A stretch of 64,000 bases of DNA. Source: Dysgonomonas sp. BGC7. Its GTDB lineage: Bacteria; Bacteroidota; Bacteroidia; Bacteroidales; Dysgonomonadaceae. Numbering within the stretch: position 1 is the stretch's first letter; every line of letters starts with the position of its first letter. Positions 6,301 to 20,603 of this stretch are shown here, piece after piece. A model generated the notes under the pieces. The model made no database searches and had not been told where the DNA came from. It saw only the letters and a list, made by a program, of their open reading frames with translations. Location: positions 62,001-126,000 of the forward strand of contig NZ_CVRP01000011.1 in assembly GCF_001261735.1 (NCBI RefSeq), read 5' to 3'. Made by a program: the position numbers and the translations under genes.

Positions 6301-6359
6301 GAGATTAGTGGAATAGAAAGGAGTTTAAGAGGGAGAATATTAATAAAGTCTACTAAGTA

Positions 6360-6387
6360 TTGAGTTTATCTTAATGAAATATATTTG
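6360..6387 (+). promoter_or_regulatory. Possible integrase promoter
   Basis: -7-like TATATTTG at 6380-6387 with TTG at 6360-6362; the 17-bp spacer is shorter than the usual 19-20 bp, so this is tentative. It lies about 100 bp upstream of the integrase. Confidence 0.35.
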
Positions 6388-6448
6388 ATTTTTTGAGGAA
6401 GACTAAAACATATAAAAACCTTCATAAATAAAGGCTTTTGAAGATTAT

Positions 6449-6470
6449 GTTTGAACCAGTGTTTGAACCA
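6449..6470 (+). promoter_or_regulatory. Left-end tandem GTTTGAACC sites (candidate integrase arm sites)
   Basis: GTTTGAACC occurs at 6449-6457 and 6461-6469, a 12-bp period. The same motif pair with the same period is at the other end of the element (20512-20532). Paired direct repeats at both ends of an integrase-borne element are the expected form of arm-type binding sites for the integrase N-terminal domain. Confidence 0.5.
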
Positions 6471-6489
6471 AGACTTAAATTATTAAGTC

Positions 6490-7698
6490 ATGAGTACAAC
6501 AGTAAATGTAGTATGCTACAGAAACAAGAAGTTATCAAATGGAGAAAGTCCTATAATGGTTAGGGTTTGTAAAGACAGAAAAACAAAGTATAAGAGTTTA
6601 GGTATATCAGTAAATCCTATTTATTGGGATTTTGATAAGAATAGACCTAAAACAAATTGTCCTAATAGAGACTATATTTTAAAGATTATCATAGATAAAG
6701 AAGCTGAACTACAGAAGCAAATCCTAGAGCTAAAAGCAGAGGAAAAAGAGTTTACAGCCTCAACACTAATTAAATCTAAAGAAGAAAGAAAAGTAAAAAC
6801 TGTTCATGATTTTTATAGTGAGCTTATAGAAGAAATGGAACTAGCTGGAAAGATTGGTAATTCAAGAGTATATAAAGATTCTTTGAGGTCTTTGGAGAGC
6901 TATTATAAAGACAAATTAGATATTCCTTTCTCAGATATTGATATGGAGTTTTTATTAAGTTATGAGAAATGGCTTAGATTAAGAAATTGTAAAGAAAGCT
7001 CTATGAATTTATTTTTTAGGACATTGAGGAGTACCTATAATAAGGCTATAGAAAGGAAATATGCTAAAAAAGGAACTTACCCTTTCAATGATTTTAAAGT
7101 CTCTAAATTCAGTATTAAAACAGATAAAAGAGCTATTTCAAAAGATAATATTAAGCTCATTATGAATCTAGACCTATCTAAAGAGAAAGAATACATTCAA
7201 TTGAGTAGGGATTTATTTGTGTTCAGCTATTTTTGTAGTGGCATTAGTTTTTCTGATATGGCAAATCTAAAAGCTAGTAATATAGCTAATGATAGGCTTA
7301 TATACACCAGACAGAAAACTCATAGAAAAATTAATGTGCCTATTCTTGATGAAGCTAAAGAAATTATGAGGAAATATATTGATTCAAATAATGAATATAT
7401 CTTTCCTATCCTCAATCATATCATACATAAAACTAAAATGCAGCAATACAATAGAAAGAAAAAAGTCATATTGAAAGTGAATAGATATTTAAAGATAATA
7501 TCTCAAATGGTAGGTGTGGAAGTAAATTTAACAACATATGTCAGTAGACACTCATATGCTACTGTATTAAAGAACTCTGGTGTAAATATTGCTTTGATTG
7601 GAGAGACTTTAGGTCATTCAGATTTAAAAACTACTCAGATTTATTTAGATAGCTTTGAAAATAGTCAGATTGATGAAGCAATGAAGAATTTGTTGTAG
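6490..7698 (+). CDS. Tyrosine recombinase / integrase of the element
   Basis: 402 residues, full length for the Bacteroidetes integrase family. The N-terminal arm-binding domain (NVVCYRNKKLSNGESPIMVRV) is followed by a SAM-like core-binding domain (about 105-200) and the catalytic domain. The Arg-I region reads FVFSYFCSGISFSDMANL, with no Arg at the usual site, as in IntDOT-like enzymes. The sheet Lys lies in TRQKTHRKINVPI; box II is TYVSRHSYAT (Arg353, with Tyr in place of the usual His); His376 is in LGHSD and the nucleophile is Tyr385 in TTQIYL. It should catalyse integration and excision at the anticodon-loop core. I read no CG dinucleotide in the entire gene. Confidence 0.93.
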   Translation: MSTTVNVVCYRNKKLSNGESPIMVRVCKDRKTKYKSLGISVNPIYWDFDKNRPKTNCPNRDYILKIIIDKEAELQKQILELKAEEKEFTASTLIKSKEERKVKTVHDFYSELIEEMELAGKIGNSRVYKDSLRSLESYYKDKLDIPFSDIDMEFLLSYEKWLRLRNCKESSMNLFFRTLRSTYNKAIERKYAKKGTYPFNDFKVSKFSIKTDKRAISKDNIKLIMNLDLSKEKEYIQLSRDLFVFSYFCSGISFSDMANLKASNIANDRLIYTRQKTHRKINVPILDEAKEIMRKYIDSNNEYIFPILNHIIHKTKMQQYNRKKKVILKVNRYLKIISQMVGVEVNLTTYVSRHSYATVLKNSGVNIALIGETLGHSDLKTTQIYLDSFENSQIDEAMKNLL

Positions 7699-7795
7699 CA
7701 ATGAAGAATATCTTTACTAAAATATAAATAATATAAACAGTAGAGATATTCTAACAAAATAAACTATTTTTGTTAAAAACATAACCTATATATCT

Positions 7796-9769
7796 ATGGA
7801 AGAAACAGCTTTAAAAGAGGTCGTATCAACCCTTATGAAAGAATTAGTAATACCATTCATTAAGAACTTTACAAGTAAAGCAAAACTTGACTATAAGAAG
7901 AATTTCGTACCAACAGAGAAACATTTTAGAGAGTATTTCGCTAGAACCTATGATAAATTATCTAGTCTAAATACAATAGCATTAAAGAATACTAATAAAT
8001 CATTAAAAGAGATTTATATTCCTCTGAGTATAGTTCAAAAAGATAATGAAAAAAAGAAGAAAATTAAAATTAATTCATATCCTAAAGCACTTATAAGTAA
8101 GTATAGGAATATTTTGATAACAGATACAGCTGGGATGGGGAAGTCTACATTAATGAAAAGAATATTTCTTGACATTGTAGAAAAACACTCAGGAATACCT
8201 CTTTTTATAGAACTAAGAAGATTATCAAAAGATAAAAGTCTAATATCTGAAATTTATGAACAACTTAGTTCAATAAACAAACAATTTGATGAAACTCTAT
8301 TTCTAGAGTTATTAGCAGAAGGAGGATTTATTATAATCTTAGATGGATATGATGAAATTTCAATAAATGACAAATCCACAGTAACTGCTGATATACAGGA
8401 TTTTATAAATAAGACAAAGAAGAATAACTTCATATTGACATCTAGACCTGAGCAGAGTTTAGCAAGTTTTGGTAGTTTTAAAGAATTCAATATTGAACCA
8501 CTAACTAAAGAAGAAGCATTTAGACTGTTAAAAAAATACGATAAAAGTGGAAAAATATCAACTCTTTTAATAAATAAGCTTGAAGAAACAAATTTGGCTG
8601 GTATAAAAGAGTTTCTTACAAACCCTCTTCTAGTATCCTTACTTTTCACAGCTTTTGAATACAAACAAAAAATTCCTTTGAAAAAACACCTGTTTTACAG
8701 GCAAGTTTTTGATGCTTATTTTGAAATGCATGATATAACAAAAGGAGAATCTTATACTCATGATAAATATACGAATTTAGGTGTAGATGAATTTGACAGA
8801 ACATTAAGATATTTAGGATTTCTTTGTTTAAAAAGACAAAAGATAGAATTTTCAAAAGATGAAATTTTATCTCTTTTGGATGAATGTAATAAGTTTTGTG
8901 TAGGAATAGAGTTTCATAGTGATGATTTTTTAAAAGATATCACAACAATGGTTCCTCTTTTTGCAAGAGATGGTATATATTATAAGTGGTCTCATAAATC
9001 ATTACAAGAATATTTTGCAGCACAATTTATCTATAGGGATGCAGGAAACAATAGAGATAACTTATTACTTGCAATTTATAATAACCCTAATATTGAAAAG
9101 TTTGAAAATGTCTTAGATTTATACTATGACATTGATTATAAAACTTTTCGAAATACAATAGAGTATGAATTTATAAAAAAATATCTTGAGTTTTCAAAAG
9201 ACAATTATACACAACAACAACTGCCTCATATCCCTGAAAAAGAGTTAATAAAGAGAAAAGAACTTTCTTTTGGCAGAAACTTCTACCTGATTATTACTCA
9301 ATCAGGAAAGGACAGTGAAAGCATTGAACATAAAGACTTTCAAGAAGCTATCAATAAACTTCCTAAAGGAAATTTAGATTATGGACTTAATCTTAAATTA
9401 ATTATTCAAAATCATAGAGAGGATTATATATATTTTGCATGCAATTATATAAGTCAAATCATTGTTGTGAGTCAAATTTTATTTAACAAACAAAGTAACC
9501 TAGTAAGAAAATCTATTAAGTCAGAAGAGTTTAAAGAAATTGATGTTGAAAATTTCAATTATAACTACCCTATTGATTGTGATGCTCAAAATAAATATAA
9601 CTCTTTGGATAATTTTCTATTAATAAATCATGGAATAGAATCTTCTAATTTTCTTTTTACTGGAATAGCTATTCCTCTTAATCATGAAAATATTTATAAA
9701 ACATTGAATGAAATAGAAAATGATCTGTCAATAAATGATGAAAGCATTTTCCTATTCAATGGATTCTAA
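7796..9769 (+). CDS. NACHT-domain NTPase, probable antiphage defence protein
   Basis: 657 residues. An N-terminal helical region of about 105 residues precedes a NACHT module: Walker A DTAGMGKST at 110-118, extended Walker B IIILDGYDE at 179-187, the sensor-like segment FILTSRPEQ near 220 and a winged-helix region ending in WSHKSLQEYFAAQFIYRD, typical of NACHT proteins. About 230 further residues carry no recognisable repeat or enzymatic domain. Bacterial NACHT proteins of this stand-alone form are known to give phage resistance. The gene stands alone between the integrase and two small exported-protein genes. The NACHT call is secure; a defence role is inferred from family and island context, and the effector mechanism is not visible. 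Confidence 0.88.
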   Translation: MEETALKEVVSTLMKELVIPFIKNFTSKAKLDYKKNFVPTEKHFREYFARTYDKLSSLNTIALKNTNKSLKEIYIPLSIVQKDNEKKKKIKINSYPKALISKYRNILITDTAGMGKSTLMKRIFLDIVEKHSGIPLFIELRRLSKDKSLISEIYEQLSSINKQFDETLFLELLAEGGFIIILDGYDEISINDKSTVTADIQDFINKTKKNNFILTSRPEQSLASFGSFKEFNIEPLTKEEAFRLLKKYDKSGKISTLLINKLEETNLAGIKEFLTNPLLVSLLFTAFEYKQKIPLKKHLFYRQVFDAYFEMHDITKGESYTHDKYTNLGVDEFDRTLRYLGFLCLKRQKIEFSKDEILSLLDECNKFCVGIEFHSDDFLKDITTMVPLFARDGIYYKWSHKSLQEYFAAQFIYRDAGNNRDNLLLAIYNNPNIEKFENVLDLYYDIDYKTFRNTIEYEFIKKYLEFSKDNYTQQQLPHIPEKELIKRKELSFGRNFYLIITQSGKDSESIEHKDFQEAINKLPKGNLDYGLNLKLIIQNHREDYIYFACNYISQIIVVSQILFNKQSNLVRKSIKSEEFKEIDVENFNYNYPIDCDAQNKYNSLDNFLLINHGIESSNFLFTGIAIPLNHENIYKTLNEIENDLSINDESIFLFNGF

Positions 9770-9772
9770 ACT

Positions 9773-9811
9773 CTCACTTACTTTCTAATAATATTTATAA
9801 ATCTAAGTGAG
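9773..9811. repeat. Dispersed inverted repeat, copy 1
   Basis: Arms CTCACTTA (9773-9780) and TAAGTGAG (9804-9811) with a 23-nt spacer. It is followed by a stretch (to about 9846) closely similar to the one after copy 2 (CTCAGATAATnTAAAAATAAAAT). It lies just after the NACHT stop and about 105 bp before the next gene. Confidence 0.7.
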
Positions 9812-9915
9812 CAATATATAGTCTCAGATAATATAAAAATAAAATACATAGTATGTAGAATTATTTATGAAGGATAAGTACTTTTATAAGACTTTAAACT
9901 TTTAGACCTTTTATT

Positions 9916-10425
9916 ATGAAAAATATAATTCTAATATTTCTATTCTTTTTTGGAGTTCATCTGTATGCTCAAACTTCTTCTAAGTATGAATTTAAACCTC
10001 AATATAGCATAGCTTTACCTTCTGAAACAGGTAAGATAATGATGGTTCAATGCTCTAGAAGTGTTCCTGAAAATATTGAAAAGTATTTTGATTTAACAAA
10101 TACAGACATAGCTTCACTAGAAGATAACTATAAAAAAATACTATCAATAAAAGCTACTGAATGCTGTTTACAAGGGTGGAAAATCCCCAAACTTGATGAT
10201 TATGCTTTTCAATATGTTGGAGTTGTAATTAACAGTCGAAAGTATATCTACATAAATGCATTTTTAATTGATATTTCATATGGACAAGATAGTTTCAAAA
10301 CTTGGCATAAAGATTGGAAAACAAAACCAATAATAGCTTGTGATGGAGGTGATGGTTTTTGGGGTGCATTATTTGACTTAGAAAAGAAAACATTTTCACG
10401 ATTATCTGTAAATGGGTTTGGATAG
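9916..10425 (+). CDS. Exported protein of unknown function
   Basis: 169 residues with a clear Sec signal peptide (MKNIILIFLFFFGVHLYAQ, cleavage after LYAQ or AYAQ-type site). The mature part of about 150 residues contains a Cys pair (CC near residue 80) and two more Cys, and patches such as WKIPKLDDYAFQYVGVVINSRKYIYINAF and CDGGDGFWGALFDLEKK that look like a compact beta-rich domain. I recognise no family. It follows inverted-repeat copy 1 and precedes a lipoprotein gene in the same direction, so both are probably periplasmic or envelope cargo of the element. Confidence 0.7.
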   Translation: MKNIILIFLFFFGVHLYAQTSSKYEFKPQYSIALPSETGKIMMVQCSRSVPENIEKYFDLTNTDIASLEDNYKKILSIKATECCLQGWKIPKLDDYAFQYVGVVINSRKYIYINAFLIDISYGQDSFKTWHKDWKTKPIIACDGGDGFWGALFDLEKKTFSRLSVNGFG

Positions 10426-10534
10426 AATGAATGTTTAATATAAAAAAGAGAGAACCTCATATGCACTTATTGTCTAGAAAGAATATTACAAATATAGTTT
10501 ATGGAAAAAAGTATTCATTTGTCTCTACTTTACA

Positions 10535-10551
10535 TAACTTAATCTAAGTTA
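10535..10551. repeat. Short palindrome at a start codon
   Basis: TAACTTA (10535-10541), a 3-nt spacer, TAAGTTA (10545-10551), ending one base before the ATG of the lipoprotein gene. It shares the AATCTAAGT core with copies 1 and 4 of the dispersed inverted repeat. Confidence 0.45.
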
Positions 10552-10552
10552 A

Positions 10553-11098
10553 ATGAAATATTTATATTTATTACTTTTTACATCTCTATTATATCATTCC
10601 TGTAAATATCAGAATGAAGTGCCTTCCAATTTCAACTTTATAATAAATGATGGAGCAAATGATTCTTATAATTCAGAAAAGGGTTTGTTTTATAGAGAAT
10701 CCCTTATAGAATCTAAATTTTATGATGATGACTCTATTTTGACAAAAGGCTATATAATAGATAAGAAAGAATACTCTATAAAATTAAAAGAGAATGACTA
10801 TAAAAGGGTCTATAAATTGTATAAAAGCATTAATTTTCAAAGCTTTCCATCTAAATTTGAAATCGAATGGGATAACCCTGAAATAATTATAACATCACCA
10901 AGCTTTGAAAGCTCTTTAGAAATATACGAAAATAATAATTGTAAGAAAGTAATAGCTGATATTCCCAATATAAACAACCCCATAAAAGACAGAAAACAAA
11001 GTATAAAGTATCTGGAACTATATGATTTGATATGGGAAATCATCAAAGAAAAGGAAGAATATAAGATTACTCCAAAATCAAATATGGTTTATTTTTAA
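10553..11098 (+). CDS. Small lipoprotein of unknown function
   Basis: 181 residues beginning with a lipoprotein signal (MKYLYLLLFTSLLYHSC), so the likely acylated Cys is residue 17. The mature protein is acidic and Asn/Ser-rich, with a central segment KLKENDYKRVYKLYKSINF and a C-terminal YLELYDLIWEIIKEKEE helix. No family is recognised. It follows the exported-protein gene and precedes inverted-repeat copy 2. Its location in the envelope is supported by the signal; the function is unknown. Confidence 0.7.
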   Translation: MKYLYLLLFTSLLYHSCKYQNEVPSNFNFIINDGANDSYNSEKGLFYRESLIESKFYDDDSILTKGYIIDKKEYSIKLKENDYKRVYKLYKSINFQSFPSKFEIEWDNPEIIITSPSFESSLEIYENNNCKKVIADIPNINNPIKDRKQSIKYLELYDLIWEIIKEKEEYKITPKSNMVYF

Positions 11099-11176
11099 TT
11101 TAATCAATAAAATAGTATTTTTTACAGAGAGAGAGTCTGTATTTACATATTACAATAGTCTACCCCATGAGGAAAA

Positions 11177-11211
11177 CACTTACATCTTAGTGATATTCAA
11201 AACCTAAGTGA
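11177..11211. repeat. Dispersed inverted repeat, copy 2
   Basis: Arms CACTTA (11177-11182) and TAAGTGA (11205-11211). The right arm ends 33 bp before the helicase-like gene, nearly the same spacing as copy 3 to the DUF3871 gene. The downstream stretch (CTCAGATAATCTAAAAATAA) matches that after copy 1. Confidence 0.6.
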
Positions 11212-11244
11212 ACAAAATACATTCTCAGATAATCTAAAAATAAA

Positions 11245-13419
11245 ATGGCTAAAACTACAGACTTATTTGAACACTTAAAAAAGTATGGGACAGCAAAAGA
11301 AGAAGAAACAACACCCAAAGCTATAGTAGAAAATCAAGTCAAGGATTTATTTTCAGAAGCAATCTTAGATACTCTGGCAGGAGCAAATCCAAAAGAAACA
11401 GTCACTTCCATTCATAAAGATTATATTGAGACCAGAAGTTTATCCAATTTCTTCTCAGAAGAATACAGACTTTCTAATTTTATCCAAAAGATGCCTCATG
11501 GCATTGTAGACAAGAAAGCTACAGGAGTAGGTGCAACAACCTTAGAACTCAAAGCACCCAGACATTCAATAATAGTAGTACCCACCAAGAAACTAGCCTA
11601 TAGTAAGTTTAAGTGGGCTGAAAACAATCTGAATCCTAAAAAAGTACTATATATTGGTACTTCCATAGGAGAATTTAGAGACAGGGTAAGTAGAAGTGAG
11701 ATCATTAAATATATTGAGCAAAACCCTACTCAATCTCTAAAGTTTTTGGTTGTAGCAGACAGCTTAAATTATTTAATGAATATACTAGGAGAAGAAGCCT
11801 ATAAACACTATTTCTTAATGATAGATGAAATAGACCTTCTTCAAGCAGACAGTAACTACAGACCTAATTTAGAAACAGTAATAGACCACTATTTTAAGTT
11901 TGATGTAAAGAACAGGTGTATTGTAACTGCTACAATGGGAGAATTCTCTAATCCTCTATTCCAGAATGAATGCAAATTTGAAATAGAAGAACTGTCCCAC
12001 AAGAAAAGAGATATAAGCCTTATACATATCAATGAGTCTGACAGCATAAATCATGCAGTCATAGATAAAATAAAAAAGTATCCAGAAGATAAGATACTGA
12101 TAGCCTATAATACAGTCTCACAGGTAAAGAATATTATATCTATGCTGGATGAACCCATACAAAGGGAATGTGCTATTATGTGCAGTGAATCAAGCAGGAA
12201 TGATGCAGGAGCTTATTATTACCCATTGAATGATGATTCTACCCTACCCAAGAGAATAAATTTTGTGACTTGCAGTTATTTCTCTGGAATAGATATAAAT
12301 GATACATACCATCTTATAACTGTTTCTAATGTAAAGTATGCACACCAAATGCTTACTACAAAAAAGATAACTCAAATCTATGGAAGATGCAGGGTTAAAG
12401 ATGGCATATTAAGTGATACTATAATCTATAATACTACTAGCTATGAACCTCAATTTAAAAGGTCTACAGCAAATTATAGAAATATACTGATAAAGAAAGC
12501 TAATAAGGTATTGGATTTGATAAAGGCAGCCCATATTATACAGGGAGAAGATAAAGATTTAATAGATTTATTCAATGTAATGAAACTTGCCATATTGGAT
12601 AAAGCACTTGAAACCCCATTCAGAGGTCAGCCAATTCGACTTATAAGACCTACTATTAATAGAGGAGAATATGATATAGCCTACCTTAATATTGATTTTC
12701 TGGTAGAAAGGGAACAGCTATTCAATGAACTATATATTAATCAAGAGAAATTGTATAAAGTTCTAATTTCAGAAGGACATCAGGTCACAGAGATAGAATA
12801 TGAAGATAATAGAACTGATGAAGAAAAATCAACAGAACAAGGAGCAGACAGTTATCTCACAGAGGACAGACAAAAATTAATAGATTCATTACAGGCTGCA
12901 TTAGTATCAGACTTAAAAAAGAAAGCTAAGAAACTTACACCTAAAGTTTTTAATCAGTATATATCTGGGAGGTTAAGAACCTGCACCAAAGAAGAAACAC
13001 CTATTCTTGAAAGATTTAGATATTTGCATAGATATGTAGAATCAGACAAACTATTGGACTATCTCTATGAAATAAGACACAAGAATATAAAAGCCTTTAA
13101 GAGTCTCAACAATACAATTATGTTCTGGTGTCTGGCGGAAGATCATCCTCTAAGAATAAGTATGAGAGAAGCCTTTCAAACAGGCAAAGAATATACACCA
13201 GAAGAAATACATGAGAAGATAGAACCAATAGTCAAATATCATTTTCATAAGACTATAAAACCAAGAACCTCTATCAGCTTATTTAAGGCTTATTTTGAAG
13301 TCTCAAGACCAAGACAGAGCTATGTAGTCATAAAAGAAAATCCTCTCAATTTTGAAGAGAGAAAGACCTCTATAGGCAAGAAAGAGAATAACCTTTTGAG
13401 ATATTTCGTTATTAATTAA
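11245..13419 (+). CDS. SF2 helicase-like protein, putative replication protein of the element
   Basis: 724 residues. Helicase-like signatures appear in order: a P-loop-like TGVGATT near 93-99 without the usual Lys, IIVVPTK (motif Ia-like) at 109-115, LMIDEID at 191-197 (Walker B), TATMG (motif III-like) near 238, and a second RecA-like half with KILIAYNT, the segment TCSYFSGIDI and KITQIYGRCR (motif VI-like) near 380-390. About 300 C-terminal residues are helical and unrecognised. Bacteroidetes mobile elements often carry such proteins near replication or mobilisation genes, so a replication role is inferred. I read only three CG dinucleotides over 11221-13440. Confidence 0.65.
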   Translation: MAKTTDLFEHLKKYGTAKEEETTPKAIVENQVKDLFSEAILDTLAGANPKETVTSIHKDYIETRSLSNFFSEEYRLSNFIQKMPHGIVDKKATGVGATTLELKAPRHSIIVVPTKKLAYSKFKWAENNLNPKKVLYIGTSIGEFRDRVSRSEIIKYIEQNPTQSLKFLVVADSLNYLMNILGEEAYKHYFLMIDEIDLLQADSNYRPNLETVIDHYFKFDVKNRCIVTATMGEFSNPLFQNECKFEIEELSHKKRDISLIHINESDSINHAVIDKIKKYPEDKILIAYNTVSQVKNIISMLDEPIQRECAIMCSESSRNDAGAYYYPLNDDSTLPKRINFVTCSYFSGIDINDTYHLITVSNVKYAHQMLTTKKITQIYGRCRVKDGILSDTIIYNTTSYEPQFKRSTANYRNILIKKANKVLDLIKAAHIIQGEDKDLIDLFNVMKLAILDKALETPFRGQPIRLIRPTINRGEYDIAYLNIDFLVEREQLFNELYINQEKLYKVLISEGHQVTEIEYEDNRTDEEKSTEQGADSYLTEDRQKLIDSLQAALVSDLKKKAKKLTPKVFNQYISGRLRTCTKEETPILERFRYLHRYVESDKLLDYLYEIRHKNIKAFKSLNNTIMFWCLAEDHPLRISMREAFQTGKEYTPEEIHEKIEPIVKYHFHKTIKPRTSISLFKAYFEVSRPRQSYVVIKENPLNFEERKTSIGKKENNLLRYFVIN

Positions 13420-13448
13420 ACTGCTTATTATCAATTAAATACATCTTT

Positions 13449-13473
13449 AAATATTTGGAAAATTCAAATATTT
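13449..13473 (+). terminator. Hairpin after the helicase-like gene
   Basis: Perfect 9-bp stem AAATATTTG (13449-13457) with CAAATATTT (13465-13473), 7-nt loop, followed by a T. All-AT arms make it a weak terminator, and it overlaps the -33 element of the next promoter. Confidence 0.45.
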
Positions 13474-13485
13474 TACTTATATTTG
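13454..13485 (+). promoter_or_regulatory. Promoter for the winged-helix-like gene
   Basis: -33 TTTG (13454-13457), 20-bp spacer, -7 TATATTTG (13478-13485): a full match to the Bacteroides promoter form. Transcription would start near 13492, leaving a leader of about 190 nt that contains the palindrome at 13588-13652. Confidence 0.6.
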
Positions 13486-13587
13486 TATTTCTAAATCAAG
13501 AAGATAGACTATTCTATAGAAATGCCTCTTTATTCTAAGGGGAATAGATTCAAAAGATTTCATTTAACTAAGGGTATGCAAATTGTA

Positions 13588-13652
13588 TGTCATACTATAC
13601 TACCTACTATTTAATATAGTATATAATAAGTAGGTAATATAGTATAGCATAT
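13588..13652. repeat. Long imperfect AT-rich palindrome
   Basis: Left arm around 13591-13610 (CATACTATACTACCTACTAT) pairs imperfectly with 13627-13652 (AATAAGTAGGTAATATAGTA and beyond). The octamer ATACTATA or its complement appears in the left arm, the centre (ATATAGTATAT) and the right arm. It lies in the leader of the winged-helix-like gene and could be an operator or a replication origin. Confidence 0.6.
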
Positions 13653-13681
13653 GTTTTGAACACCCTGCAAAAGTAAATGAG

Positions 13682-14317
13682 ATGAAGTCTTATACTATTA
13701 TCCCAAATGAAGCAGGAAAAATATTTAAACCAGAAGATTTATACACTATTACTTGTATGTATCTGACAGCTAAAGATGACTACACAACTAATTCTACAAG
13801 AGAATAGTTAGCTGAAATTACAGGATTATCCTTTGCCTATATAAAAGATAAGTTCCTTCCCAGATTAAGAAGTACAAAATTCTGTGAAATAGAAGAATAT
13901 ACAGAATTTCCAGATAGCCAGATAAAAAAGAGGAACAAGTATATATTACCTCAACCTCAAACCAATTACAGAATTATAAGTAAAGAAATATTGGAAGATA
14001 CAAATCTTACTCCTACAGAGAAAGGTATTATAATTGGCTTATCCTCTTTGAGTGTAAATAACTCTTTTAACATTGGACTCAATAAGAGTCAAATATCAAA
14101 GTCTTTAAATATAAGTAGAAACTCGTATCTAAAATATGAAAAATCTTTGATTGAGAAAGGCTATATAACACCTCTTTCAGAAGATATTACCAATAGCAGA
14201 CATGAAGACTTTAGTCAAGGGATAGTATTAAAATGCAGTTGGTTAGGAACTAAAGAACTGAATAAAAAGGTGCATGAATCAACCCATAATAATGTGAATT
14301 CACAAGAATTAGAGTAA
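13682..14317 (+). pseudogene. Winged-helix-like protein interrupted by an amber codon
   Basis: Reading from the ATG at 13682 gives one continuous 212-codon frame except for a TAG at 13805-13807 (codon 42). The text reads TNSTRE-stop-LAEITGLSFAYIKDKFLPRL, where Gln (CAG to TAG, one transition) would restore a helix-turn-helix of the TREQLAEITGLS type. The second half has another helix-turn-helix (NKSQISKSLNISRNSYLKYEKSLIEKGYI), as in replication-initiator or regulator proteins with two winged helices. A 108-residue product starting at 13991 could still be made and would keep the second domain. It has its own promoter and a palindromic leader, suggesting a regulator or initiator of the element. 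Confidence 0.65.
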
Positions 14318-14508
14318 ATGCTTAAATTCTACCATTAGTATAACTTAACTATTTCTACTCTTTTAAAAAATTGTAAGAAAAAATTTTATTATTTTTTTTT
14401 CAAAAAGATTCTGTATATCCACAAGCACTCAATAATCAAACTACACCCCCTCCATCTTTTGCAGAGATGGGATAGTCCCCCTGCACAACAACAATAATAT
14501 TTAGAATT

Positions 14509-14778
14509 ATGAATGGACTAACATTTTTAGAAAGTTGGAGTGTGAGCCAATTTAAGCAAAACCACCATGTAGAAAAAATTGAGATTAAGAAAAATGAAGC
14601 TACAGGGAAATGCTTCTTTGTCTATGGATTTGAAACAGGGGCTTGCAGTAGTAAAGTAAAAACAGGGGAGTTGAATAATCCTGTAATATCACAAGTATGT
14701 GTTTCTGAGACAGGAGAAATGTTTTATCTTCTGCATCAGAAGGGAGAAAGCAAAGCCATGACTTTAGCAGTATTATAA
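14509..14778 (+). CDS. Small conserved-type protein of mobile elements, function unknown
   Basis: 89 residues, soluble, no signal peptide. The pattern EKIEIKKNEATGKCFFVYGFETGACS, then NPVISQV and EMFYLLHQKGE, is of a kind I associate with small proteins on Bacteroidetes mobile elements, but it has no assigned function. It is monocistronic with a strong terminator 13 bp downstream. No CG dinucleotide was seen in the gene. Confidence 0.7.
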   Translation: MNGLTFLESWSVSQFKQNHHVEKIEIKKNEATGKCFFVYGFETGACSSKVKTGELNNPVISQVCVSETGEMFYLLHQKGESKAMTLAVL

Positions 14779-14790
14779 TAACTAGATACA

Positions 14791-14815
14791 GGGAAGATTT
14801 AGGTCTTCCCTTTTT
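14791..14815 (+). terminator. Rho-independent terminator
   Basis: Perfect stem GGGAAGA (14791-14797) with TCTTCCC (14804-14810), 6-nt loop, then TTTTT. Ends the small gene at 14509-14778. Confidence 0.85.
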
Positions 14816-14832
14816 ATTTTAAAGTATATTCT

Positions 14833-14872
14833 GCTCACTTAGGTATATAAATAATATAGAAACAAAGTGAGC
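14833..14872. repeat. Dispersed inverted repeat, copy 3
   Basis: Arms GCTCACTT (14833-14840) and AAGTGAGC (14865-14872), 24-nt spacer, 31 bp before the DUF3871 gene. Confidence 0.7.
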
Positions 14873-14903
14873 ATATTAATCACTAATAAAAAATTTACTC
14901 CAT

Positions 14904-15932
14904 ATGGAAACAATGCAATTAATTACAGTAAAGAGTAATCATACAGATGTAATGATTCCTCAACCCCTTCCCCTTCAAAATGCAATAGAAAATACATATA
15001 TCTGTGACAACAATCCAAGCCCTTTTATAGAAGCCAATACCAAAGAAGCAAGTTTACATCATTTGAAGCATGAATGTATTGTACCTGTCTTCTCTAAGGA
15101 TAATGAGGTTACTATCAGCCATACTAATTTCATAGAAACTGTTTGGGATGCTGCAAGTAGTTTCTTTCCAAATGAGACAATCTTACAGCCAGACATAAGG
15201 GTTTCTCATGTAGTGAAGGGAAGAGTTCCAGAAGCTATAAATAAACCTGTCAGTCAGCTTTTAGAGAGTGATAAGACTGTCTATTATGAAAGGATGGCTT
15301 TCTGCTTTGAAGTACCTACAATCTTTCAGGATATAGAAGGAAACAGGCTTAATCTTTCCATTGGTGGAGTAAGAGCTTTAAACCATGAAAACCTCTATTC
15401 TAAAAAGAGTATAGAGAAATTCAAGATATTTATAGGCTTTAAAAATCTAGTCTGTACAAATCTATGTGTATCTACAGATGGGTATAAGTCTGAATTAAGA
15501 GTTATGAGTTTGGAAGAATTATTTAAGGCTACATTATTACTATTTCAGCAATATAACCCTAACAGGCATCTGGAATTAATGTCTTCTTTTCAGAACTCTT
15601 ATCTAACAGAACATCAGTTTGCACAGTTGATTGGTAAAAGTAAATTCTATCAATGCTTACCTAATGCACAAAAGAAGCTATTACCTAACATGGAGTTTGG
15701 AGATACTCATATCAATGCAGTAGCCAAAGCCTATTACAATGATAAGAATTTCAGAATAGAGGAAGGTACAGATGCTATTAACCTCTGGAAGGTCTATAAT
15801 CTGTTTACAGGGGCTAATAAGAACAGTTATATAGATAATATATTAGATAGGTCTTTGAATGCAACTGAATTATTGGAAGGCATTAATAGGGCTTTGCATG
15901 GAGATAGAGAATATAGATGGTTTATTGAGTGA
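14904..15932 (+). CDS. DUF3871 family protein
   Basis: 342 residues. The middle and C-terminal part carries the DUF3871 pattern: MAFCFEVPTIFQDIEGN, NLSIGGVRAL, KFKIFIGFKNLVCTNLCVSTDGY, then LELMSSFQNSYLTEHQFAQLIGK and INAVAKAYYND. The family is confined to Bacteroidetes, mostly in mobile elements, and resembles phage-type DUF932 proteins in being of unknown function. It follows inverted-repeat copy 3 with the same spacing as the helicase-like gene has to copy 2, suggesting joint control. No enzymatic motif is visible. Confidence 0.82.
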   Translation: METMQLITVKSNHTDVMIPQPLPLQNAIENTYICDNNPSPFIEANTKEASLHHLKHECIVPVFSKDNEVTISHTNFIETVWDAASSFFPNETILQPDIRVSHVVKGRVPEAINKPVSQLLESDKTVYYERMAFCFEVPTIFQDIEGNRLNLSIGGVRALNHENLYSKKSIEKFKIFIGFKNLVCTNLCVSTDGYKSELRVMSLEELFKATLLLFQQYNPNRHLELMSSFQNSYLTEHQFAQLIGKSKFYQCLPNAQKKLLPNMEFGDTHINAVAKAYYNDKNFRIEEGTDAINLWKVYNLFTGANKNSYIDNILDRSLNATELLEGINRALHGDREYRWFIE

Positions 15933-15962
15933 AATTTTCTATTTTTATGAGAAATATAAATA

Positions 15963-16541
15963 TTGAATACCATGAATTATAAAACATGCATTTTAGAAAA
16001 AGGGAAGCAGTATGAGACATTAGAAGATATTCTTCCTAAAAGTGGAAATTTAGACATTCTTTTTATTGCAAAAACTCCTGCAACTATAAGTGTAAATAAA
16101 GGTCATTATTTTCAGGGTAAGCAAGGTAGAATGTTTTGGAATAAGTTAGCTGATTATCACATATTAAATGTTCCTTATGGTGAATATGAGGATAATTATC
16201 TGTTAAAAAACAATTATGGTATAACAGATATAGTAAAGATTCCAAGAGATTTTGGCAATGAACCTTCTAAAGAAGAATATAGAGAAGGCTATCTCAGAAT
16301 TTTGGAGATAATTGAAAGATATAAACCTAAGGTAATTATTTTTGTCTATAAAAAAGTCTTAGATGAAATCTTATCTATAAAACATGGATTTAAAATAAAA
16401 TCTGACTATGGATTTAACCCTCAATATGATTCAGATTTTAATTCTAAAGTATTTGTCTTTCCAATGCCAGGGACACCATGTACAAGAGAAACCTCTGAAT
16501 TAGCAATGAATGAATTGTCCAAAATCATAATAAAGAAATAA
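15963..16541 (+). CDS. Uracil-DNA glycosylase superfamily-like protein
   Basis: 192 residues. The order LDILFIAKTPATISVNKGHYF, GRMFWNKLAD, GITDIVKIP, KPKVIIFVYKKVLDEIL and FPMPGTPCTR follows the UDG fold (motif A strand and loop, a GHYF...FW segment as in MUG/TDG-type enzymes, and a C-terminal loop). The motif A GxNPG is replaced by AKTPAT, and the C-terminal HPSP-type loop by PMPGTPC, so base excision may be altered or lost. It could be a glycosylase that attacks modified phage DNA, or a binding protein; this is inference. It follows DUF3871 by 30 bp and precedes inverted-repeat copy 4. Confidence 0.6.
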   Translation: MNTMNYKTCILEKGKQYETLEDILPKSGNLDILFIAKTPATISVNKGHYFQGKQGRMFWNKLADYHILNVPYGEYEDNYLLKNNYGITDIVKIPRDFGNEPSKEEYREGYLRILEIIERYKPKVIIFVYKKVLDEILSIKHGFKIKSDYGFNPQYDSDFNSKVFVFPMPGTPCTRETSELAMNELSKIIIKK

Positions 16542-16555
16542 GGATTAATCACCCT

Positions 16556-16592: not shown

Positions 16593-16673
16593 ATATTAGG
16601 ATAAAAAGAGATAGCTTTTGATTGCTGATGTAATGCAATTAGAAATTTATCCCTTTTTTATTATTGTTGTATT

Positions 16674-16703: not shown

Positions 16704-16715
16704 AATTATGCTTTT

Positions 16716-16814
16716 ATGCGAACATTTTTACAAATAATAGGTCACATTATTATAGGATATATCATTATGTATGTAATATGCTATGAAGATAGACCTACCA
16801 GAAAGAAGAAATAG
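16716..16814 (+). CDS. Candidate 32-residue membrane microprotein
   Basis: ATG at 16716 and TAG at 16812-16814. The product starts MRTFLQIIGHIIIGYIIMY, a single hydrophobic helix, and ends in a basic tail (RPTRKKK). The composition is what one expects of a real small membrane protein, for example a type I toxin-like peptide, but there is no homology evidence. The start lies 13 bp after a terminator, which makes expression uncertain. Confidence 0.35.
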   Translation: MRTFLQIIGHIIIGYIIMYVICYEDRPTRKKK

Positions 16815-16914
16815 TAAATAGAGAAAGTATTATTTAATGAATTTATTATTACCCTAACTCACAGCCACACCTATATATGAATTGGAAGGACTTAATTCAA
16901 AAAGTAATTGAATA

Positions 16915-16948
16915 TTTGATGTATATCTGCTTAAATCTTGTATTTTTG
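16915..16948 (+). promoter_or_regulatory. Possible promoter for the structured leader and cargo operon
   Basis: TTTG (16915-16918), 22-bp spacer, TATTTTTG (16941-16948). The spacer is slightly long. A start near 16955 would give a leader of about 235 nt containing the structured RNA at 17040-17152. Confidence 0.4.
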
Positions 16949-17039
16949 CAGTATAACTGAAAATTAAATAATTGCGAATGAATATATAAGTTTAACTAAG
17001 ACATATTTTTAGAAAGAAGTATTTGCTTTTTACTCGTGC

Positions 17040-17152
17040 AGTCCTAAAATACCACATCAAGACATCACAACAGTAACAAAGTAGGTGCTACATCTTTTAT
17101 AGGTGTGGTTTTCCTTATTTTGTGTGATGTGGGTAGTGGTATACCTAGGACT
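17040..17152 (+). ncRNA. Candidate structured RNA / leader (unclassified)
   Basis: Three nested helices are separated by small internal loops: AGTCCTA (17040-17046) with TAGGACT (17146-17152); ATACCAC (17049-17055) with GTGGTAT (17136-17142); ACATCACA (17062-17069) with TGTGATGT (17123-17130). The apical region holds two mutually exclusive hairpins, GTAG/CTAC (17081-17091) and ACATC/GGTGT (17090-17106). This much nested complementarity is not expected by chance. It lies upstream of the cargo operon. Alternatives are a riboswitch-like leader, a free small RNA, or a DNA structure such as an oriT or single-strand origin. I match it to no known RNA family. Confidence 0.55.
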
Positions 17153-17167
17153 CCAATCTAAGTGATA

Positions 17168-17196
17168 AGCCACATCTTCTTTTTGTAGGTATGGCT
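17168..17196 (+). promoter_or_regulatory. Hairpin covering a possible start codon
   Basis: AGCCACATC (17168-17176) pairs with GGTATGGCT (17188-17196) with one mismatch and one wobble. The right arm contains the ATG at 17191. It follows the structured RNA by 15 nt and could hide that start. Confidence 0.45.
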
Positions 17197-17820
17197 ACTA
17201 AAAAAAGAAAAAGTATGAGAAAAATTTTAATTATCACAGTTTTAACCATGTTTACATTCACACAGTGTGATTATAAGCCTTCTAATCAGAAAAATGCAGA
17301 GATTACAACCCAACAAGAAGAACCAGAACCAGAGGATTTCACAGAGGACAAGCCTGTCTTAGATACAAAGAAGTATAAAACTTATTCTGTTTCTGGCTTA
17401 GGAACATTTACTATTGCATATCCTAAAAAATGGGAAGTTATGGAAAGACCTAATCCACAAGTTTCTGCTATAATGATAGAACCTGAAAATGGGGATAAGT
17501 TCAGAAGCAATGTGAATATAATTGTAACATTGAGAGGTGAAGATCTTTCTTCTGCTGTTACAGGTAATTCAGAAAAGCAAATGAGGCAAGTATTTCCAGA
17601 TTATAAAATTCTATCTAAAGAAATGACAAAACTTAGAGGGAAAAAATGTTTGGAGTTATTGACTAGTTGTACTATGCAAGGTTATCCTGTAATACAAAAC
17701 CAATATATATTTAAAAAGGAGAACATAGCCTATATAATATCCTTCACTATCTCAAAAGATAGATATAATCAAGAAAAAGATACAATCAAAGACATTATTA
17801 ACTCAATCACATTTAATTAA
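17191..17820 (+). CDS. Lipoprotein with a PsbP/DcrB-like fold, first gene of the cargo cluster
   Basis: 209 residues. A lipoprotein signal (MRKILIITVLTMFTFTQC) begins at the second Met, residue 9 (position 17215), so the true start may be there. The Cys is followed by an acidic Glu/Pro-rich linker (QQEEPEPEDFTEDKP). From about residue 65, SVSGLGTFTIAYPKKWEVMERPNPQ, then a strand-rich region with KKCLELLTSCTM and a final IAYIISFTISKDRYNQEKDTIKDIINSI, recalls DcrB/PsbP-type lipoproteins (DUF1795-like). Only 2 bp separate it from the next gene. Function within the element is unknown. Confidence 0.7.
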   Translation: MATKKRKSMRKILIITVLTMFTFTQCDYKPSNQKNAEITTQQEEPEPEDFTEDKPVLDTKKYKTYSVSGLGTFTIAYPKKWEVMERPNPQVSAIMIEPENGDKFRSNVNIIVTLRGEDLSSAVTGNSEKQMRQVFPDYKILSKEMTKLRGKKCLELLTSCTMQGYPVIQNQYIFKKENIAYIISFTISKDRYNQEKDTIKDIINSITFN

Positions 17821-17822
17821 TT

Positions 17823-18575
17823 ATGATACTTACTATACTATTAAAATATTCAAGTACAGGTGAAGCTTTTTTTGTTGGAGGATTACAAGGTCTACTTATA
17901 GCAGGAATTTTTGGCTTATATTATTGGATAAAAGGTAAAAGAAAGAAAAAAAAGGAGGAAATAATTCCATATTCTAATAAAATCCATGTAGCAATAGATA
18001 TGGAGGCTGAAAAAGAAGAAAAGTTAAAAAGACTTCAATCTATTGAAAATCAAAAAGAATCTACAGAAGATATAGATAGTGTAATTTCTCAAAGATTAAT
18101 ACTGTTAGTAAAAGAGCTATCTGATTTAACATCTGAATTAGAAACAGGTAAAAATGAGAAAATGATTTCCTGTGAAACTAATATGTTATTTTTCATTCTT
18201 GTATGGTTAGTTTTAGCAGAAGAAACAACTGATAACAGTGAAATACATTCTTTATTTGTGCAGAACCTTCCAGATTTTGAAGATTTTATAAATACTGAAT
18301 ATGAAGGCTTGTTTAGAAATAATGGTATAAATGCAGATAAATATTTTTCTAATAGGATAGATTTATTTAGAGATGAACTAAGAAAATATACCCAAAACTC
18401 AACTTATGCCTTTCCTAAAGTTACAGCAGCCTTTTATAAAACTCCATTAGAATTGAATCTAAAAGATTACTTTGGAATGGAGAATCTATTTATCAGCAAC
18501 TGTATTCCTCTGTGGAAAGATGCAATGAGAGAACCTATTAAAATATTATTGGCTTATAAAAACCTAAAAGAATAA
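17823..18575 (+). CDS. Membrane protein of unknown function, cargo cluster gene 2
   Basis: 250 residues. One N-terminal membrane helix (AFFVGGLQGLLIAGIFGLYYWI, about 14-35) is followed by a strongly basic stop-transfer sequence (KGKRKKKKEE) and a cytoplasmic part. A hydrophobic stretch, MLFFILVWLVLAEE near 122-135, may be a buried helix or a second segment. The rest is helical, acidic and unrecognised. It starts 2 bp after the lipoprotein gene, so the two are certainly co-transcribed and may form an envelope-spanning pair. Confidence 0.7.
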   Translation: MILTILLKYSSTGEAFFVGGLQGLLIAGIFGLYYWIKGKRKKKKEEIIPYSNKIHVAIDMEAEKEEKLKRLQSIENQKESTEDIDSVISQRLILLVKELSDLTSELETGKNEKMISCETNMLFFILVWLVLAEETTDNSEIHSLFVQNLPDFEDFINTEYEGLFRNNGINADKYFSNRIDLFRDELRKYTQNSTYAFPKVTAAFYKTPLELNLKDYFGMENLFISNCIPLWKDAMREPIKILLAYKNLKE

Positions 18576-18590
18576 AATTTATATTTATAT

Positions 18591-18606
18591 AATGAAATAG
18601 TAAGTA
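18591..18606 (+). repeat. 16-bp intergenic repeat, copy A
   Basis: AATGAAATAGTAAGTA, identical to 19166-19181. Both copies lie in gaps between genes of the cargo cluster, which points to a regulatory or processing site. Confidence 0.55.
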
Positions 18607-18650
18607 ACTATAGAATCAATTGCTATTTATATAATTAAGAAGCAGAGACA

Positions 18651-19106
18651 ATGAAAATAGAATTTTCAGAAAAAATAAAAGCTAGAATAAAAAAAAATGT
18701 TTCAGCTAGATTTGGAAACTCGAATCAGACCATATTACTTGTAAGTATTGGTAATATGGGATTTCTATTTTCAAAAGCCTCAAATTTAGAATGTAATTTA
18801 ATATCTCCTTGTCTGGTTCAATTTATAACGAATAATCAGTCTATTAGAGAGATTAACTCCTTTTTCAAATTAACAGGTATAGAGAATCCTGAAGATTATA
18901 TTCACTTATCTGAACAAAAATATGTAAAGAAAGGGGAAAAGGAAATATATTATAAAAAAGGTCAGAAAAGGAAAATGGAAGAAATAGAATTGACCTTTAA
19001 ATTAAATAATAAGACCTACACGGATTTATTCTATATTGATGAAAACTTAGATAATCATCTGATGGAAGGGAAGAGGATAGTTGGGCTATTAAGAAGAGAT
19101 TTTTAA
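18651..19106 (+). CDS. Unknown small protein, possibly degenerate retropepsin-like
   Basis: 151 residues, no signal peptide. The C-terminal half (EIELTFKLNNKTYTDLFYIDENLDNHLMEGKRIVGLLRRDF) resembles the closing strands of Bacteroidetes retropepsin-like aspartic protease domains, which end in a GILG-x-x-F-type turn. The position where these have a D-T/S-G triad holds VSIGNMGFLFSK instead, so no catalytic Asp is seen and activity is unlikely. The resemblance is weak and by eye. It lies 75 bp after the membrane-protein gene, behind a 16-bp repeat. Confidence 0.6.
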   Translation: MKIEFSEKIKARIKKNVSARFGNSNQTILLVSIGNMGFLFSKASNLECNLISPCLVQFITNNQSIREINSFFKLTGIENPEDYIHLSEQKYVKKGEKEIYYKKGQKRKMEEIELTFKLNNKTYTDLFYIDENLDNHLMEGKRIVGLLRRDF

Positions 19107-19169
19107 GGAAATATAGAAATATTATAAATCACAACTTAAAATAAATATACCTTCTGTAGTAGTTAAATG

Positions 19170-19216
19170 AAATAGTAAGTAGTCTTTAATGAAATGTTAA
19201 ATATTACTTACTATTT
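19170..19216. repeat. 12-bp inverted repeat before cargo gene 4 (overlaps 16-bp repeat copy B, 19166-19181)
   Basis: AAATAGTAAGTA (19170-19181) and TACTTACTATTT (19205-19216), perfect arms with a 23-nt spacer. The left arm is part of the 16-bp repeat also found at 18591-18606. The spacing resembles that of the CTCACTTA family, with a different arm sequence. Confidence 0.6.
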
Positions 19217-19256
19217 TTGTGTAGATATTATCATAGTTTATTATAAATCTTATACT

Positions 19257-20477
19257 ATGGCTTTTGAACAAATTCTTTTGATTGTATTATTAGTTGGCAT
19301 TATACTAATTTTTCTGACAAGATTATTTTCTGAGAAAAAGAAAAAAAATATTGAAGAACCAGAACCACCTAAGAAAGAAGATGGGGAGACTGCCCCTAAA
19401 GAAGAGCCTGTTGAAAATGGAAGAACTACTAATGAGGTTAAAATAGAAAATGATATTAAAGATTCAGAACCTTCCATAAATATTAATAATGAATTATCTG
19501 AGAGTGAACCAAACCATACTACAGTAAAATCTGAAAAAGAAAATACAGCTGAATCAGTTAAAGATGAAACAGAAGTAATAATAGATAATTCTCCTGTAGA
19601 AAAAATAGATCCTTTTATTGACCTTGAAAGTAATAATTACAATAGTGATATAAAAAAAATCTCACTAGAAGGTCATAATCTTAGAAATATCAAAGAAAGA
19701 GATTACTATCTGTTTTATCATAGAGATACAGATTCATACTACCATAATAAAGAATATCTTTTAACCCCTGTCAGAGATATAATAGGAGGCTTTTTTCCTT
19801 TCAATTTAGAAGAAAATGCAAAAAGGAAAGCTGCTCAAGAAAATTGTAGTACACAAGAAATAAAGGATAGATGGAAACATGATGGCAATCTGGCAAAAGA
19901 ATTAGGAAGACACCTACATATGCAAATTGCAAATTATTTTCTAAATAAAGAAACTGATATGAAATATTCTTTCAACTTTTATAGCCAGAATATAAAAGTC
20001 TCTAATAGAGGATATGATATATCTAAAGAGTTTTCAATTTTTAAAAATCTGGCAGACAAACAAATAAAACCTTCTGTTTATAAAACAGATTGGCTTATAT
20101 ATAGTCCTGAACATGAAGTTATAGGTTCAGTTGATATAGTTTTCAAAGAGCCTGATGCAGAACTTTACTATATGGTTGATTGTATTAGATCAAATAAATT
20201 ATTTGATGAAGAAAGAGATGTAATTCCATGTAGAGAATTTGGTACAGGGTTACATGAAATGAATAAGACTCCTAATAGTGAATATCACAAAGCATGTTTA
20301 AAACAAAATATTCATAAATATATATTGGAAAAATATTATGATCTAAAAATTGAAAAGATGGTACTATTAATCTTACATCCTGACTTTTCAAAGTATCATA
20401 CTTTAGCAGTTTTAGATATGCAAGAAGAAGCTGAATATATGTTACAGAATAAACATTTAGTTATAGAAGAAAAATAA
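19257..20477 (+). CDS. Membrane-anchored PD-(D/E)XK nuclease-like protein, catalytic Lys absent
   Basis: 406 residues from the ATG at 19257; an upstream ATG at 19194 would lie inside an inverted repeat and add an unlikely leader, so I chose the later start. An N-terminal membrane helix (EQILLIVLLVGIILIFL) is followed by a basic patch, about 100 acidic linker residues, then a C-terminal domain of about 260 residues. That domain has KELGRHLHMQIANYF, YSPEHEVIGSVDIVF, YYMVDCIRSNKLF, KACLKQNIHKYILEKYYDLKIEKMVLLILHPD, the order seen in PD-(D/E)XK nucleases of the GxxxH, GxxD, DWK, QLxxYxxxL type. The usual Asp-Trp-Lys reads Asp-Cys-Ile, so cleavage activity is doubtful. Confidence 0.65.
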   Translation: MAFEQILLIVLLVGIILIFLTRLFSEKKKKNIEEPEPPKKEDGETAPKEEPVENGRTTNEVKIENDIKDSEPSININNELSESEPNHTTVKSEKENTAESVKDETEVIIDNSPVEKIDPFIDLESNNYNSDIKKISLEGHNLRNIKERDYYLFYHRDTDSYYHNKEYLLTPVRDIIGGFFPFNLEENAKRKAAQENCSTQEIKDRWKHDGNLAKELGRHLHMQIANYFLNKETDMKYSFNFYSQNIKVSNRGYDISKEFSIFKNLADKQIKPSVYKTDWLIYSPEHEVIGSVDIVFKEPDAELYYMVDCIRSNKLFDEERDVIPCREFGTGLHEMNKTPNSEYHKACLKQNIHKYILEKYYDLKIEKMVLLILHPDFSKYHTLAVLDMQEEAEYMLQNKHLVIEEK

Positions 20478-20511
20478 ATTATTAATCCAAAAATCTTGGA
20501 AAAGAGCACTT

Positions 20512-20532
20512 GTTTGAACTATAGTTTGAACC
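20512..20532 (+). promoter_or_regulatory. Right-end tandem GTTTGAACY sites (candidate arm sites)
   Basis: GTTTGAACT (20512-20520) and GTTTGAACC (20524-20532), the same 12-bp period and orientation as the pair at 6449-6470 next to the integrase. Confidence 0.5.
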
Positions 20533-20541
20533 AAAAGAAAA

Positions 20542-20569
20542 AAGCAACTACATTTCATTGTAATTGCTT
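20542..20569. terminator. Hairpin between cargo gene 4 and attR
   Basis: AAGCAACTACA (20542-20552) pairs with TGTAATTGCTT (20559-20569) with one mismatch and a 6-nt loop. An A tract on the left gives U residues on the minus strand, so it could stop leftward transcription from the tRNA promoter copy in attR. Confidence 0.5.
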
Positions 20570-20603
20570 GATATATTGAGTTGTATTTTAAACTTGTTAC
20601 TTT

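Follow-up and report, generated by a model that had tools for sequence, protein, structure and literature searches.

Near-total loss of CG dinucleotides in a family of small Bacteroidota islands and its counterpart in crAss-like phages

An integrative element almost devoid of CG

The DNA analysed here (the window) is a stretch of 64,000 nt from Dysgonomonas sp. BGC7 (assembly GCF_001261735.1, contig NZ_CVRP01000011.1, positions 62,001–126,000, forward strand). At 6301–20603 on its plus strand it carries an integrative element, flanked by an exact 189-bp direct repeat, that has lost nearly all of its CG dinucleotides: 20 are present against the 290.0 expected from base composition (observed/expected ratio, O/E, 0.069). 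The element is one of a family of small Bacteroidota islands that spread horizontally and mostly sit in tRNA genes, and several crAss-like phages have the same signature. We consider it likely that the loss is a restriction-type purge, that is, the outcome of purifying selection by DNA-cleaving enzymes and not of mutation.

The CG loss in the island is real and extreme. A first-pass annotation made from the sequence had described near-total loss of CG in an element set in a chromosome that uses CG freely, and both statements hold, since the flanks have CG O/E of 0.950 (1–6300) and 0.913 (20604–64000). Its three local counts were exact, with 0 CG in the integrase gene at 6490–7698 (23.1 expected), 3 at 11221–13440 (57.8 expected) and 0 at 17161–18720 (30.2 expected). 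It had named an O/E near 1, or one resembling the flanks, as the result that would speak against the claim, and the measured value is 0.069 against 0.91–0.95. The reverse dinucleotide GpC is normal in the element (O/E 1.01). As a chance control, 2-kb windows in 1-kb steps were taken over 1.2 Mb of the chromosome of a congener, G003 (5.2 Mb in all), which gave a mean CG O/E of 0.97 (standard deviation 0.13, n = 1197 windows) and a lowest value of 0.48.

In the element and six siblings from other genomes (together, the seven islands), the CG loss affects both coding and intergenic DNA, the pooled intergenic CG O/E being 0.06, which agrees with the earlier description of a whole-element signature and not a codon quirk of one gene. 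Arginine is indeed coded almost only by AGA or AGG, these two making up 98% of the 865 Arg codons in the genes of the seven islands versus 44% of 2163 in flanking genes, and the share of Arg among residues is unchanged (0.038 versus 0.040). A second CG-poor stretch, chromosomal and outside the element, lies at 46751–48250, with 1-kb windows of 0.37–0.40.

Sibling islands and related loci

The six siblings (G003, G011, G017, G022, G038 and G054) were found with the 724-aa helicase-like protein of the element as query, so that the helicase is present in 7/7 islands by selection. The host of the element shares its genus with G011. As the first-pass annotation had proposed, CG was measured in these relatives too: O/E is 0.00–0.12 in the islands, with sharp edges, versus 0.89–1.02 in the flanks, and the G017 island has zero CG in 8.9 kb. 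Their GC content is 0.27–0.31. A full-length integrase stands at one end in 5/7 islands, a remnant is left in G003 and none was seen in G022. The conserved 89-aa protein p89 and a DUF3871 protein are both present in 6/7, G017 being without either. Cargo varies between and after the core genes, and in the siblings it includes defence-type genes (SIR2, Abi-alpha, TIR, OLD-like AAA and Schlafen AlbA); a Sak4-like ATPase adjoins p89 in G054 and G038. The sites occupied by the siblings are tRNA-Ser (48-bp repeat), tRNA-Met twice (16 and 44 bp) and tRNA-Phe (no repeat >12 bp), and neither a tRNA nor a repeat >12 bp was found at the element ends in G003 and G022.

The depletion is conserved between diverged siblings. 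Relatives of the helicase with 35–84% identity, including those only 35–47% identical, keep CG-poor DNA, and more distant matches (24–33% identity) sit in DNA with CG O/E of 0.53–1.52. In a comparison of orthologues from G000, G003 and G011, which covered seven genes with pairs that overlap and weights that are uniform (its p value being a rough guide only), CG was involved at 3 of the 167 four-fold sites that differed; 28% of the possible single changes would create one. A host lineage unlike the present one, also suggested at first, does not account for the pattern: the loss is held by an element family in hosts with CG-normal flanks, and two elements of a single strain, B. congonensis Marseille-P3132T, differ in the CG O/E of their DUF3871 genes (0.03 in locus L090 versus 0.63 in L143).

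Over 94 loci, two of which duplicate others, the CG O/E of the DUF3871 gene ranges from 0.00 to 1.36. In a DUF3871 tree of 107 rows (L060, L061, L074 and L140 left out), extreme loss occurs in at least three clades, namely Dysgonomonas/Prevotella, Bacteroidaceae, and L147 together with L145 and three genomes; a CG-normal Alistipes/Rikenellaceae clade (16 rows, 0.93–1.36) sits among the depleted ones. One viral contig, IMGVR_UViG_2847593706_000001, holds two DUF3871 genes (L145 and L147) and has CG O/E of 0.0–0.5 over most of ~30 kb. Another record, L154 (NZ_OY725960.1), is a circular 15.5-kb B. finegoldii sequence with two integrases, DUF3871 and an Eco57I-type methylase; it is CG-normal (0.95) and is probably a free circular form of such an element.

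A single causal gene carried by the elements was considered and is not supported by the distribution of the helicase, p89, DUF3871 or the integrase. The helicase was not detected in L068, L078, L092, L102, L145 and L147, some of which are short contigs.

Avoidance of other restriction words

Measured against a Markov expectation and against the host, GATC, GGCC, CTGCAG and 6-bp palindromes are under-represented; CG is lost together with independent restriction words. In the seven islands (word counts are observed/expected throughout) GGCC stands at 0/42 versus 176/335 in the flanks and GATC at 50/243 versus 488/695, the window's island alone having seven GATC and no GGCC. Six Bacteroides-group elements have GATC 1/132 and GGCC 3/62; the corresponding counts are 6/33 and 1/7 in L068 and 6/20 and 0/4 in L102. 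Six elements from each of these two groups have no CTGCAG, the PstI site (0/12 and 0/15), and CTGAAG, GATATC and CCAGG are low in both. Given that such words head lists of 1376–1389 six-mers and 384 five-mers, it is the agreement of the two groups that constitutes the evidence for them. GC-containing 6-bp palindromes reach 0.67, 0.54 and 0.45 of expectation in three of four groups versus 0.86, 0.72 and 0.91 in the flanks, and mirror controls lie at 0.98–1.07. CTAG, a word in which the flanks are poor too, is absent from some Bacteroides-group elements (0/19.5 in L078, 0/26.8 in L092 and 0/42.4 in L087); L090 keeps it (25/35).

The sequence context of the loss was also analysed. Pooling 16 depleted elements gives values of 0.045–0.118 for every one of the ten NCGN contexts, with no clear heterogeneity (p 0.06). 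The contexts seem even in phage DAC15 (15/517, p 0.2), phage FpV4, L090 and L087, and heterogeneous in L147 (p 5e-6) and in phage crAss001 (p 1e-5, partly from tRNA genes). In partly depleted relatives the loss is word-specific. Thus L105, a DUF3871 element of Bacteroides oleiciplenus (4000–16000), has CCGN 0/108 and ACGC 31/39 with normal flanks, and L153 has CCGG 0/14, CCGA 4/47 (CCGR 4/61) and CCGC 19/27. A plain mutation process acting on CG would not produce such patterns. The proposal that a CG-containing restriction site is avoided pointed in the right direction, but it was too narrow, since all ten contexts are depleted and GGCC, GATC and CTGCAG are low as well.

Nuclease families matching these words occur among 120 relatives: HaeIII-type in 5 (4 over the cut-off), DpnII in 7, BsuBI/PstI in 10 and HpaII in 9 (8 over the cut-off).

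The same signature in several crAss-like phages

Phage crAss001 has 84 CG against 3021 expected in 100 kb, together with one GATC, no GGCC and no CTGCAG, and in the nine genes counted its Arg codons are AGA or AGG only. In its first 50 kb, 18 of the 44 CG lie within its 23 tRNA genes; the T-loops of these tRNAs often read TTCA instead of TTCG (L155, 1683–5807). Across 50 viral contigs with a related terminase, CG O/E is 0.03–0.82 (median 0.20), and across 33 contigs related to phage B40-8 it is 0.43–1.98 (median 1.03). Among 15 named phages, of each of which parts of 10–50 kb were measured, the extremes are crAss001 (0.03), DAC15 (0.03), tikkala (0.05), FpV4 (0.05) and bajarodcaudo virus (0.10, counted as crAss-like from its gene order); cr85_1, cr116_1, cr128_1 and cr10_1 have 0.17–0.40 and 6 of the 15 have 0.53–0.86.

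A search of 50,697 phage records with p89 (E up to 10) returned 37 matches. In 33 of these the match is nearly full-length and lies in a crAss-like phage; 25 belong to one PhiCrAssBcn set, and three genomes are entered twice. The others are a fragment of a faecal element (MT839478), a broken copy in two crAss001 entries (E 4) and one match at chance level. The p89 homologue of crAss001, gp1, straddles the point where the circular record is joined and is divided there between two reading frames (end of L302 to start of L155). In cr85_1, tikkala and cr128_1 the p89 gene opens a block that runs to the replication genes.

Probable restriction-type purging and its alternatives

If the loss is a restriction-type purge, the naked element, on cell entry or during replication, would meet DNA-cleaving enzymes, mainly restriction endonucleases of its Bacteroidota hosts, and copies with cuttable words would fail to establish. 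Repeated passage would then remove CG-containing words most of all, along with GATC, GGCC, CTGCAG and further short palindromes, and a similar pressure would act on the crAss-like phages of such hosts. The agent would be nucleolytic, transfer would take place as double-stranded DNA, and one or more of the agents would have to read CG with little flanking specificity.

Several results weigh against this explanation. It is not obvious that the known Type II sites together would deplete all ten NCGN contexts. The matching restriction families are each present in 4–8% of the relatives, some matches being partial or broken, and none of the HaeIII-type, DpnII, BsuBI/PstI and HpaII families was found in the Dysgonomonas genome itself; no nuclease cutting at bare CG was identified, and no search aimed at such an enzyme was made. 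CTGCAG is low in the flanks too (0.60 and 0.73). In L147, GATC is only down to 21/44 (GGCC 0/7) and 6-bp palindromes are not avoided (0.85 versus 0.76 in the flank). Over 92 loci, the closest correlate of CG O/E is GC content (rho 0.67), followed by GGCC (0.52) and GATC (0.44), and no correlation appears with avoidance of 6-bp palindromes (rho 0.17, p 0.11). Phage cr128_1 combines CG O/E of 0.30 with 6-bp palindromes at 0.85 and GGCC at 17/14, which indicates that CG loss is possible without general palindrome loss.

Since the CG loss is separable from the other avoidance, the cause is either the sum of many specificities that contain CG or an agent that recognises CG itself. The second option could take the form of one unrecognised agent: a Bacteroidota defence system, or a nuclease of crAss-like phages that destroys the CG-containing host genome and spares the CG-free DNA of the phages, the islands being satellites or passengers of these phages that need CG-free DNA to persist in an infected cell. 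We regard this as unlikely, although much is consistent with it. The pooled depletion is nearly context-free, like that of DAC15, and besides cr128_1 the phage contig L206 has CG O/E of 0.19 yet GGCC at 54/59. The flanks of the seven islands and the congener chromosome are CG-normal. Moreover, p89 matches crAss-like phages over its full length, and its presence goes with CG-poor elements: among 87 DUF3871 loci with enough upstream DNA, all 24 with p89 have CG O/E <0.55, as do 13 of the 63 without it, related loci in this tally not being independent. On the other side stand the word-specific patterns of the partly depleted elements and the heterogeneity of L147 and crAss001. p89 also appears dispensable, as it was not detected in G017, L147 and L145, and DAC15 and FpV4 are absent from its phage matches; sampling 393 genomes added three p89 loci, whose CG O/E is 0.52, 0.51 and 1.02. 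A scan of IMG/VR with the p89 alignment gave only four contigs, three of them islands analysed here, and neither a packaging gene nor a CG nuclease was identified.

A more specific proposal, which we hold to be rather improbable, is that the islands are satellites of crAss-like phages and that both obey a CG-based rule of self and non-self, in which an agent acting during infection would destroy CG-containing DNA while CG-free genomes would survive and be packaged. p89 would then belong to a lifestyle common to the islands and the phages. A faecal 'Bacteriophage sp.' record that carries part of such an element at 94% is suggestive only with regard to packaging by a helper phage. Phage satellites and defence islands such as PICI and P4-like elements are small and tRNA-integrated, and combine an integrase and replication-type genes with swappable defence cargo. 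The islands resemble them in their small size, integrase, tRNA attachment repeats, replication-type genes, swappable defence cargo and lack of a recognised relaxase; they differ in having no demonstrated helper, packaging module or induction.

Mutation, with CpG being methylated and then deaminated either in some earlier host or in the replicating element, is very improbable. In vertebrate-type CpG suppression by deamination of 5-methylcytosine, CG is strongly depleted in all contexts, and such a process would likewise hit all contexts here. The islands differ from that case in showing no TG/CA excess and in having lost other restriction words, GATC and GGCC, as well. CA/TG is 0.98–1.13 in the seven islands versus 0.95–1.04 in the flanks, and 0.99 in their intergenic DNA; CT/AG is 1.23–1.34, the rise of AG being partly forced by the Arg codons. 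At four-fold sites before G in the islands, the frequencies are C 0.005, A 0.573 and T 0.388, and elsewhere 0.139, 0.369 and 0.456. The resulting T/A ratio before G is 0.68, whereas a C-to-T model predicts 1.55–1.61 and removal of C alone 1.24. The Prevotella group has the same replacement pattern, and in NCN boxes of the six Bacteroides-group elements A gains more than T; in L147, a single element, the pattern is less clear. Because TG/CA is not raised in the seven islands and the lost C before G is replaced by A and not by T, the loss in the islands does not look like 5-methylcytosine deamination. A past host that methylates CpG, as the first-pass annotation had proposed, is thus not borne out; the Dysgonomonas genome itself has one PF00145 C5-methyltransferase gene that was found, on another contig (C22).

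Parts of this spectrum fit a purge less well. Before G, A exceeds T by more than would follow from the removal of C alone, and a similar but weaker bias is seen in host flanks (T/A 0.83 before G and 1.01 elsewhere). In the non-NCN boxes of the Bacteroides group A and T gain to a similar degree, and CA stands at 1.13 in intergenic DNA of this group. For the islands the case against deamination is clean; for the phages it is weaker, because CA/TG is raised to 1.15–1.19 in four crAss-like phages and to 1.33 in L206.

An ordinary compositional effect of AT-rich foreign DNA is hardly credible: the seven islands are AT-rich and CG O/E does track GC content, but distant helicase relatives in DNA of GC 0.28–0.33 keep CG O/E of 0.53–1.05, none of the 1197 congener windows falls below 0.48, and the normal GpC control refutes composition for the extremes.

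Boundaries and gene content of the element

The element has integrated at a tRNA-Asp gene (6074–6150, minus strand). The left copy of the 189-bp repeat (6112–6300) starts in the anticodon-loop region of this tRNA, and the right copy (20604–20792) comprises the 5' part of tRNA-Asp and its upstream region. When the site was compared with other species, matching was confined to the tRNA part. Just beyond the element, on the opposite strand, a second integrase-like ORF of 361 aa is recognisable by eye (4468–5553).

All genes below lie on the plus strand. The tyrosine integrase (6490–7698) has Arm-DNA-bind_5, Phage_int_SAM_5 and Phage_integrase domains. It is followed by a NACHT STAND ATPase with a SNaCT5 C-terminus (7796–9769), which is defence-type cargo by family and has no PADLOC match, by a 169-aa cargo protein (9916–10425) whose copy in the G003 element is 72% identical, and by a 181-aa lipoprotein-like cargo protein with no family above cut-off (10553–11098). 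The 724-aa SF2-helicase-like core protein (11245–13419) has Walker-like and QIYGRCR motifs by eye and no family match. An ORF at 13991–14317 matches a 105-aa portion of an HTH/replication-initiation-like protein (208 aa) of the G022 element, and p89 (14509–14778) and the DUF3871 protein (14904–15932; PF12987, E 1.8e-143) come next.

The gene at 15963–16541 belongs to the Mug-like uracil/thymine-DNA glycosylase superfamily. It is not supported as a cause of the CG loss, having no blastp match in the six siblings. A uracil-DNA glycosylase is annotated in crAss001, cr85_1 and cr128_1, with no convincing match to this gene. The remaining cargo consists of a PsbP/DcrB-like lipoprotein (17191–17820), a 250-aa ORF (17823–18575), a 151-aa ORF (18651–19106) whose CG O/E of 0.39 is the top value among the element ORFs compared, and an exonuclease-like protein (PHROG 298; 19194–20477) that is 73% identical to its copy in the G011 element.

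Capsid, tail, portal and terminase genes had no match in 10 of 13 window ORFs scanned with Pfam and PHROGs, the other three being scanned with NCBIfam only, and two window ORFs gave weak matches to structural families. No relaxase, which would mark an integrative mobilizable element, was found with Pfam in 10 of the 13 window ORFs, including the largest, or in 20 sibling ORFs, some small ORFs being unscanned.

Relation to known systems and implications

Two studies describe how short words cut by Type II enzymes, GATC included, are purged from mobile DNA (Rusinov 2018, PMC6286503; Shaw 2023, PMC10359461), and one of them reports that the elimination of sites concerns mostly non-temperate phages and is notably lower in temperate phages (Rusinov 2018, PMC6286503). 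The islands resemble the phages and plasmids of these studies in the purge of short Type II words such as GATC, and are unlike them in that a whole dinucleotide is purged over 7–18 kb, in integrated elements. With crAss-like phages (for instance crAss001 and DAC15; Steigviridae/Asinivirinae) they have in common the loss of CG, GATC, GGCC and PstI sites, as in crAss001, and, for some of these phages, a p89 homologue; the phages are ~90–100 kb long with virion genes, whereas no virion genes were recognised in the islands, which are integrated DNA.

In titles and abstract openings, a coverage outside which most subscription journals fall, we found no description of integrative elements free of CG or of crAss-like phages that have lost it. 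The main text of the crAss001 paper (PMC6235969) contains none of the words CpG, dinucleotide and restriction, CpG is likewise absent from the crAss002 paper (PMC8042965), and in PMC13037316 CPGD occurs as an acronym. Restriction-site avoidance is known from phages and plasmids; the literature found in this way does not describe its reaching a whole dinucleotide in integrated islands and, in common with them, in crAss-like phages.

For future searches, CG depletion offers a composition-only route for finding such islands. That a dinucleotide purge has been kept across deep divergence, in islands as in crAss-like phages, suggests that DNA entering Bacteroidota faces a strong barrier which recognises CG-containing words, and such a barrier would matter for understanding gene flow in the gut and the range of its phages.

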